A DNA stretch of 45,085 nt, taken from assembly GCA_008015565.1 (NCBI GenBank), contig SSFV01000090.1, forward strand, positions 1 through 45,085, written 5' to 3'. The notes beneath the pieces are model-generated. The model was not told where the DNA came from. It was given only the letters and a program-made list of their open reading frames with translations, and searched no databases. The stretch is from Nitrosomonas sp. (lineage in GTDB: Bacteria; Pseudomonadota; Gammaproteobacteria; Burkholderiales; Nitrosomonadaceae). Positions within the stretch are counted from its first letter, which is position 1, and each line of letters starts with the position of its first letter. Of the stretch, positions 43,010 through 45,085 are shown one piece after another. The position numbers and the translations under genes were made by a program.

Positions 43010-43650
43010 TCATTTCCTGCAAGTAACCGTATAAGTCATTACCATAGAAAATAAACGGCCTTTATGAATTTCAAAAGATGACGCGTTGGATAATTTCATC
43101 AATTTTTCTAATCTATTACCGGATAGCAGGTAAAGATTATCTTTGGTAACCCATGTTTTGTGTGTCTTGCACCAATTGTAAAAAATTGCATTATTCCAGT
43201 GCAGAAAGAAAATATTTGTATGGGCCTCAATCGGAAAATATTTGTTGGGTGTGGTGAAAAAACATTTTTTGCGACTCGCAACATCTCATTGATAAATTGT
43301 AATTGCGCATTATCATCGCCAACATGTTCGATCACGGCGTTGCTGAAGACCCAATCGAATTCATTGTCCTCAAATGGAAATTTACCGCCCGGATACTGGA
43401 TAAATTTTTTCCCGGGGAAAAGACCGGACATTTGACTTAAGTCCTGCACACCCAGACCAGTATAGTATTTGGGGTCATAGCGGTAATTCTTCAGAAAATA
43501 ATTTCTAGCCGGTAAACCAGCTTTAGACTCCGATGATACGCCGACATCAAGAACCGTCATGCCTTCCTTGTAGAGAGAATAAAAATGCGATAGCTTCTCT
43601 TCTCTGGATTTTTTCATGACCTTATCTTTTAAGCTTTTTATGAAAAACAT
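43010..43650 (-). pseudogene. Class I SAM-dependent methyltransferase, frameshifted
   Basis: The protein starts MFFIKSLKDKVMKKSREEKLSHF after a GGGGGA ribosome binding site. It has SAM motif I (VLDVGVS), FPFEDNEFDWVFSNAVIEHVGD and FINEMLRVAKN, typical of class I enzymes of the Methyltransf_11 type. At the T6 run (A6 at 43257-43262 on the plus strand) the frame slips. Adding one T continues it as FFTTPNKYFPIEAHTNIFFLHW...KGRLFSMVMTYTVTCRK, ending at 43010, a normal C-terminus for the family. The track ORF ends early at 43108 in the wrong frame. The gene lies about 350 bases from the SIR2-TIR gene on the other strand. Confidence 0.85.
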
Positions 43651-44001
43651 AATTCCCCCGGTGAATCACCTTTGTTAGTATGAAATTTGATAGCTTGAGC
43701 CAAGGCTATGATAACCAACTCTTGCACTGGATGATAATGATATTAATCAATCGATCCACATTTGTCATTCCGGGCGAAGTGAAAAGTCTATGAAACTGCC
43801 GCTTCATTGCATGAAACGACTATCGCACCATTGACGGGTTGTATGCACTTGATCTTACTGGTAATTTTAATTGCCAGAAATTACAGGTGCTGGATTATTC
43901 TTAGAACTTTTAAATCCTTAATAAAATAATGGGAATTTGATATAGTTGCAGCAGAAATTGCTGATTGATTCTGAATTCAACAAGATTGGGAGAATTATCG
44001 A
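43651..44001. promoter_or_regulatory. Divergent intergenic region before the SIR2-TIR gene
   Basis: This 351-base AT-rich stretch separates the methyltransferase relic from the SIR2-TIR gene and should hold promoters for both directions. I see no repeats or RNA gene. GGGAG at 43988 is the likely ribosome binding site of the downstream gene. Confidence 0.4.
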
Positions 44002-45085
44002 ATGCCTGCCGTTGAGATGCCGTGGCGGAAATTAGTCGAAAGTATCAAACGTGGTAACTGTATTCTCATACTTGGGCCTCAAGTCAGTTTTGATCCAAAC
44101 AATTCTGATTATTTGCCGCTAACCACCGCACTGGCTCATCGCCTAGCTGACCATGCAAAGCTAAAAGAATCGAAAGATCTGATAAACCGGAATGATTTAG
44201 CGCATGTTGCGCAACTTTTCAAACAAGCAACGGATCGCTATGAGCTGGAAATAGCCGCCTCCGATTTTTACAGCGCTTATCAGGCTGTCACGACTGATTT
44301 TCATAGAGACTTGGCGGCACTGCCGTTTACGCTGTGCATCAATGCCGCGCCCGATGATTTGTTCAGCAATTCTGTGATCGAGGCGGGGAAAAAATCTGCG
44401 CAGGATTATTATAATTTCAGGCGACATCGACCGCCGATTGCCAGTCAACCCAATTCCCGCCAGCCTTATATTTATAATTTATATGGCCATTACAGCGATG
44501 CAGAGTCTTTGGTGCTGACGGAAGATGACCTGCTGGAATTTTTAGCCAATATCATCAAAGCCAGTCCTGAATTACCGCCGTTGATCCGTAGTCAAGTAGC
44601 CGATCTAAGCAAAAATTTCTTGTTTATCGGCTTTGGCTTCCGTTCATGGCATCAGCGCATCTTGCTGCATGCTTTAAAAGCGCAGAATCGCAGCTATGAG
44701 TCATTGGCAGTCGAAGACAAGCAATTTTTCGACCTGCCCGATTGTTCACAGACAGCCGTGTTTTATAGTCACCTGCACAAAATCAAATTCGAATGCTACT
44801 CCTGGCTGGATTTTGCCAGAGAATTACGGCAGGCCTATGGAGCTTCGGTGAAAACAGCGATCCCTACCCAGCAAGTGATGACGGATGCGCCCAAGGTTTT
44901 TTTATGTTATGCCAGCGAAGATCGCGGTCAAGTGGGACAGCTTTGTTTAAAATTACGAAACCTCGGCATCGAGCCTTGGCAGGACAAGCAAAATTTACGT
45001 GCAGGCGACAACTGGGACCGGCAGCTCGTGCATGTGATCAATCAACAAGTCAATTACGTCATTGTGGTGCAAACGCCTGCCATGA
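44002..45085 (+). CDS. SIR2-like/TIR fusion protein, cut by the window end
   Basis: The ORF is open to the last base, so it is missing from the track; 361 residues are visible. Residues about 19-225 are SIR2_2-like: a beta-strand ILILGPQVSF where active members have GAGxS, then CINAAPDDLF, NLYGHYSDAESLVLTEDDL and NFLFIGFGFRSWHQRILLHAL. The expected catalytic His (KLHG) is Tyr161 (NLYG), and the glycine loop is GPQVS, so NAD+ hydrolysis by this half is doubtful. Residues from about 297 form a TIR domain (KVFLCYASEDRGQVGQLCLKLRNLGIEPWQDKQNLRAGDNWDRQL). Its catalytic Glu would lie beyond the window. TIR and SIR2 domains both use NAD+ in bacterial antiviral defence. The fusion and its downstream partners are the main unknown here. 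Confidence 0.85.
   Translation, partial: MPAVEMPWRKLVESIKRGNCILILGPQVSFDPNNSDYLPLTTALAHRLADHAKLKESKDLINRNDLAHVAQLFKQATDRYELEIAASDFYSAYQAVTTDFHRDLAALPFTLCINAAPDDLFSNSVIEAGKKSAQDYYNFRRHRPPIASQPNSRQPYIYNLYGHYSDAESLVLTEDDLLEFLANIIKASPELPPLIRSQVADLSKNFLFIGFGFRSWHQRILLHALKAQNRSYESLAVEDKQFFDLPDCSQTAVFYSHLHKIKFECYSWLDFARELRQAYGASVKTAIPTQQVMTDAPKVFLCYASEDRGQVGQLCLKLRNLGIEPWQDKQNLRAGDNWDRQLVHVINQQVNYVIVVQTPAM

Follow-up and report, generated by a model that had tools for sequence, protein, structure and literature searches.

The window, by which we mean the whole stretch of 45,085 nucleotides that was analysed, is contig C3 of a 2.61 Mb Nitrosomonas genome; among named relatives, a Nitrosomonas communis MAG is the closest. 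Its downstream end carries the start of a gene for a protein with a SIR2-like and a TIR domain, and the following features were assigned there:

43651..44001, no strand: intergenic region between a divergent methyltransferase-like gene and the effector gene; probably the promoter region, judged from the list of reading frames and the sequence
44002..45085, plus strand: 5' part of the SIR2-like/TIR effector gene; the frame is open to the contig end, with no stop
44023..44862, plus strand: SIR2-like domain, approximately residues 8-287, predicted to be inactive as an enzyme
44071..44088, plus strand: LGPQVS replacing (L)GAGxS, from alignment and sequence
44338..44358, plus strand: INAAPDD replacing TTNYD, with Ala at the catalytic Asn, from alignment and sequence
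44473..44490, plus strand: YNLYGH replacing YKMHG, with Tyr at the catalytic His, from alignment and sequence
44890..45085, plus strand: first half of the TIR domain (FLCYASED, EPWQDKQNL), Pfam TIR_2

The methyltransferase-like reading frame at 43108-43650 encodes 180 residues and its counterpart in a sister genome (L043:4968-5612) encodes 214; the frame in the window may be truncated.

The effector frame covers 361 of about 440-460 residues, complete homologues having 443-469. Pfam SIR2_2 was matched at residues 118-231 (E 9e-13) and TIR_2 at residues 299-359 (E 2.5e-10), both above the curated cut-offs, and the first-pass annotation was right in joining the two domains in one chain. The SIR2-like half was matched by ThsA at E 7e-5 in a direct alignment, and by the SIR2 domains of L117 and L060 with probabilities of 98.7% and 95.6% in profile comparisons. 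When the SIR2-TIR unit was compared with the PDB, it matched known bacterial TIR NADases, with the best agreement at the TIR end. PADLOC and NCBIfam returned only partial TIR or SIR2 matches, far under the cut-offs where such exist. The structure predicted for the full protein from two sequences (L062 and the window) had a pLDDT of 37 and the model was not used.

The motifs GPQVS and NLYG, which had first suggested that the SIR2 half no longer cleaves NAD+, are present in the window and were compared with ThsA. The TTNYD of ThsA aligned with N-A-A-P-D and its KMHG with NLYG, which puts Ala and Tyr at the positions of the catalytic Asn and His. This loss extends beyond the window copy to the whole family. 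All 24 homologues had Phe, Tyr or Leu at the His position, the Asn was gone in 22 of 23 (the exception is L046), and positions two and three of GAGxS were altered in nearly all members. The control SIR2 proteins L060 (SIR2-STALD) and L117 had intact catalytic motifs. Three motif residues are invariant in the family (the initial Gly in GAGxS, the Asp in TTNxD, the Gly in HG), as are a Trp and an Arg of the SIR2 half that both lie outside the catalytic motifs. For the less saturated pairs (dS up to about 2) the dN/dS of this half was 0.09-0.13; it is under purifying selection and is not decaying. From its sequence, the SIR2 half is predicted to be catalytically dead. The TIR domain of the window is cut by the contig end, and its catalytic Glu lies beyond position 45085, where it was read in relatives and in contig C16. 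The Glu was retained in 21 of 21 members with a readable position, and the family has both marks of a bacterial TIR NADase, the TIR fold (Pfam TIR_2) and the Glu.

Beyond the contig edge, the gene was followed into contig C16, which belongs to the same genome and starts with 682 nt that are 95% identical to the window end, the last 145 nt or so being identical. The two stretches (window 44404-45085 and L003:1-682) are nevertheless distinct sequences, and the difference may be due to a strain variant, a tandem copy or an assembly effect. C16 supplies the remaining TIR part (complete domain E 4e-17, with the Glu in FYKEI), followed by an nSTAND1-TPR gene (nSTAND1 E 5e-31) and then by genes reading as RNA methyltransferase, his and pur. 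In the sister genome G081, contig C113 contains the upstream genes of the window (89% identity over 5.8 kb), the SIR2-TIR gene and then nSTAND1. The end of C113 has an exact 127-nt overlap with C58, which bears the C16-like flank. Since the window-like and the C16-like flanks meet across one operon in G081, the window most likely continues into C16, and a tandem or strain copy is the less probable alternative. The two flanks lie far from each other in three single-contig relatives (G010, G033 and G074); a contig break that arose from two unlinked paralogues was considered and is weakened by the arrangement in G081. The SIR2-TIR gene on C113 (L043:5865-7202) has small length changes that break its frame, either by real decay or by an assembly error.

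The impression that the effector gene stands alone was thus produced by the contig break, which concealed its neighbour: the next gene in C16 and in G081 encodes an nSTAND1 ATPase. The further proposal, that a defence-like operon begins with this gene, is supported, an nSTAND1 gene lying directly downstream in relatives.

In a protein search, 33 of the 125 Nitrosomonadaceae genomes gave matches, some through the TIR alone, and a family profile at E 1e-20 matched 28 of the 125, a few still by the TIR alone. Thirty-six places had a high-scoring match that covered the SIR2 part, and at 34 of them an nSTAND1 gene lay directly downstream on the same strand, the exceptions being the window, where the contig ends, and L126. 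At L126:6817-7890 (G064:C28) the SIR2 half passes directly into a sequence that resembles a WD40 blade (SPDGKHIVSGSWDNTLRLWE), and this stretch is apparently a deletion relic of a SIR2-TIR/nSTAND1 operon. Up to five copies were found in one genome. In all loci read, effector and ATPase were two reading frames, and in most of them the gene ends overlapped or were at most 34 nt apart. Outside the family the pair is rare and was seen in G298 and G490 of the class sample and in one Paraburkholderia replicon; the searched viral contigs, phages and plasmids contained nothing save this replicon with the same pair. Here, the operon is flanked by glycan genes and by his and pur genes, with no recognisable defence island, a setting that speaks against the immune function proposed below.

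In the partner protein the nSTAND1 domain begins near the N-terminus, without a fused effector, and a simple pattern for the P-loop motif was found in 16 of 18 partners. With the nSTAND1 match in C16 (E 5e-31), the partner has the features of a STAND ATPase. Most partners end in a superstructure-forming sensor of TPR, WD40 or FGE type, distributed as follows:

TPR: L003, L042, L044, L058
WD40: L050, L054, L056, L057, L114
FGE-sulfatase-like: L047
C-terminus unassigned: L011, L045, L046, L052, L112

Neither WD40 nor TPR was confined to one clade of the tree, a distribution that points to exchange of the C-terminal sensor. The trees of effector and ATPase were correlated with r = 0.974, the maximum of 2000 permutations being 0.51. 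This congruence reflects joint inheritance of the pair, which is also expected from vertical descent and is no proof of contact. Among the Pfam matches of the scanned proteins there was no bDLD3-type death-like adaptor.

Some related loci were seen alongside. At L058:7072-10835 (G012:C94) the start of a TIR-like gene overlaps an nSTAND1 gene, possibly a split TIR/nSTAND1 pair without SIR2, and a SIR2-TIR/nSTAND1 pair is adjacent on the opposite strand. Near another SIR2-TIR operon, the frame L049:429-1235 (G055:C168) has an N-terminus that looks DUF4062-like (TIR-like, Swarozyc). Two standalone SIR2-like proteins (L118:6531-7391 and L120:5801-6664) have GPGVL for GAGxS and lie near a putative DegT-type aminotransferase gene. 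They have no nSTAND1 neighbour and were set aside from the family, as a putative second, unrelated lineage of altered SIR2 domains.

We consider it probable that the pair is a two-gene NLR-like (STAND) immune system and that the window gene is its effector. As the catalytic residues of the SIR2 domain are gone and a separate STAND ATPase is present, the once-enzymatic domain probably connects the sensor and the killer. An invader product would be bound by the variable C-terminal sensor of the nSTAND1 ATPase, which would then switch and oligomerise. The dead SIR2-like domain would dock the effector onto the ATPase or onto itself and so cluster the TIR domains, and the clustered TIRs would hydrolyse NAD+ and halt the infected cell. 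By analogy with NLR-like STAND systems, the order from sensor to ATPase, SIR2 and TIR is the most likely one. The contact between the two proteins, the TIR activity, the coupling role of SIR2 and the anti-phage function are what we infer here.

Other explanations were weighed against this receptor. The SIR2-like half could be a ligand pocket that binds NAD+ or an ADP-ribose product and controls the TIR allosterically, with the ATPase bringing the infection signal. The kept fold, the three invariant motif residues and the strong purifying selection speak for such a pocket, but the NAD+-contacting residues of GAGxS are replaced in nearly all members and the invariant Trp and Arg lie elsewhere, and we regard it as unlikely. 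The coupling role fits the operon better than ligand sensing, and neither is proven. It is highly improbable that the SIR2 half has kept NADase activity by means of an unusual active site. Avs5 works with NG replacing HG and hence tolerates a change of His to Asn, but its GAGxS and TTNxD motifs are intact and replacing its Asn by Ala abolishes activity (PMC12931631), whereas here Asn is changed to Ala, His to Tyr and GAG to GPQ; this combined loss argues for a dead SIR2 enzyme.

Rather than depleting NAD+ itself, the TIR might resemble ThsB and produce cyclic ADP-ribose to signal to a separate effector. Some bacterial TIRs make cADPR isomers (PMC10022894), and the TIR of one member matched ThcB4, under the cut-off; no recurring receptor gene, ThsA or other, was found beside the pair in the loci read, however, which makes this route improbable. 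A role of the pair as regulator of an ordinary cellular process would suit its chromosomal site beside housekeeping genes, and no relative was found in the phage or viral collections searched. Its patchy occurrence (28 of 125 family genomes), up to five copies per genome, relics and sensor swapping are, on the other hand, typical of conflict systems, and we hold a function outside defence to be quite improbable. The two-gene immune receptor is the reading that we prefer.

The receptor was then compared with known systems. Thoeris, with which the first-pass annotation had drawn an analogy, shares the SIR2 and TIR modules, and the SIR2 half has its nearest solved relative in ThsA. In Thoeris, however, the modules are separate proteins, the SIR2 is active, a STALD/SLOG or macro domain senses cADPR and there is no STAND ATPase. 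The SIR2 here has Ala and Tyr at the Asn and His positions, Pfam detected no STALD/SLOG or macro domain (the control L060 gave STALD at E 2.7e-75), and the conserved partner, at 34 of 36 places, is nSTAND1 and not a ThsA gene or a separate ThsB TIR gene. The analogy was given up and membership of Thoeris was rejected. Assignment to Avs5 (AVAST type 5) was likewise discarded. Avs5 also has a SIR2_2 domain acting with a STAND ATPase and C-terminal repeats, but it is a single chain with nSTAND3 and an active SIR2 and without TIR (PMC12931631); here SIR2 and STAND are on two reading frames and the GAGxS and TTNxD motifs are missing.

Single-chain TIR-nSTAND1 proteins, such as L040 of the same genus, have no SIR2 and combine both functions in one chain; their existence supports the coupling of TIR with nSTAND1. 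In the L117 operon (G288), as here, a SIR2-family gene stands immediately before nSTAND1. At L117:1245-6136 (G288:C35) this gene (GAGAS, TTNYD, KMHG) overlaps the nSTAND1 gene by 4 nt. It differs in its intact SIR2 motifs and lack of a TIR, and its nSTAND1 protein has TPR-S and patatin, the latter possibly a second effector. Such an intact SIR2 beside nSTAND1 suggests that the SIR2 may once have been the effector, retained as a coupler after a TIR had been added, a hypothesis based on the one operon of this type seen among 369 genomes. Tentatively, and with somewhat less than even confidence, we propose that a sirtuin NADase partner of nSTAND1 gained a TIR, lost catalysis and stayed as a docking module, giving a two-gene receptor in which a dead enzyme replaces the death-fold adaptor. 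If true, this would be a class of two-gene STAND receptors with an inactivated NADase as the coupling part, and would show one route by which the effector can be replaced without loss of its link to the sensor. The family offers a compact test case in ammonia-oxidising bacteria, with a single effector architecture and several natural kinds of sensor.

The single elements have been described before, namely nSTAND1, TIR-effector STAND systems whose sensors can be swapped, and two-gene TIR/STAND pairs linked through a death-like adaptor (PMC8195603, PMC7159879, PMC10907252); for a SIR2-TIR fusion partnered with nSTAND1 no description was found in the open-access literature. Kaur et al. 2021 (PMC8195603) named nSTAND1 conflict systems and reported a bDLD3-TIR gene adjoining a bDLD3-STAND-FGS gene. 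These bDLD3 pairs resemble the present operon in having two genes, a TIR effector apart from the STAND protein and swappable sensors including FGS/FGE. There, a death-like adaptor is present on both proteins, whereas here Pfam scans detected no adaptor domain on the ATPase partner, and a predicted dead SIR2 stands on the effector only.
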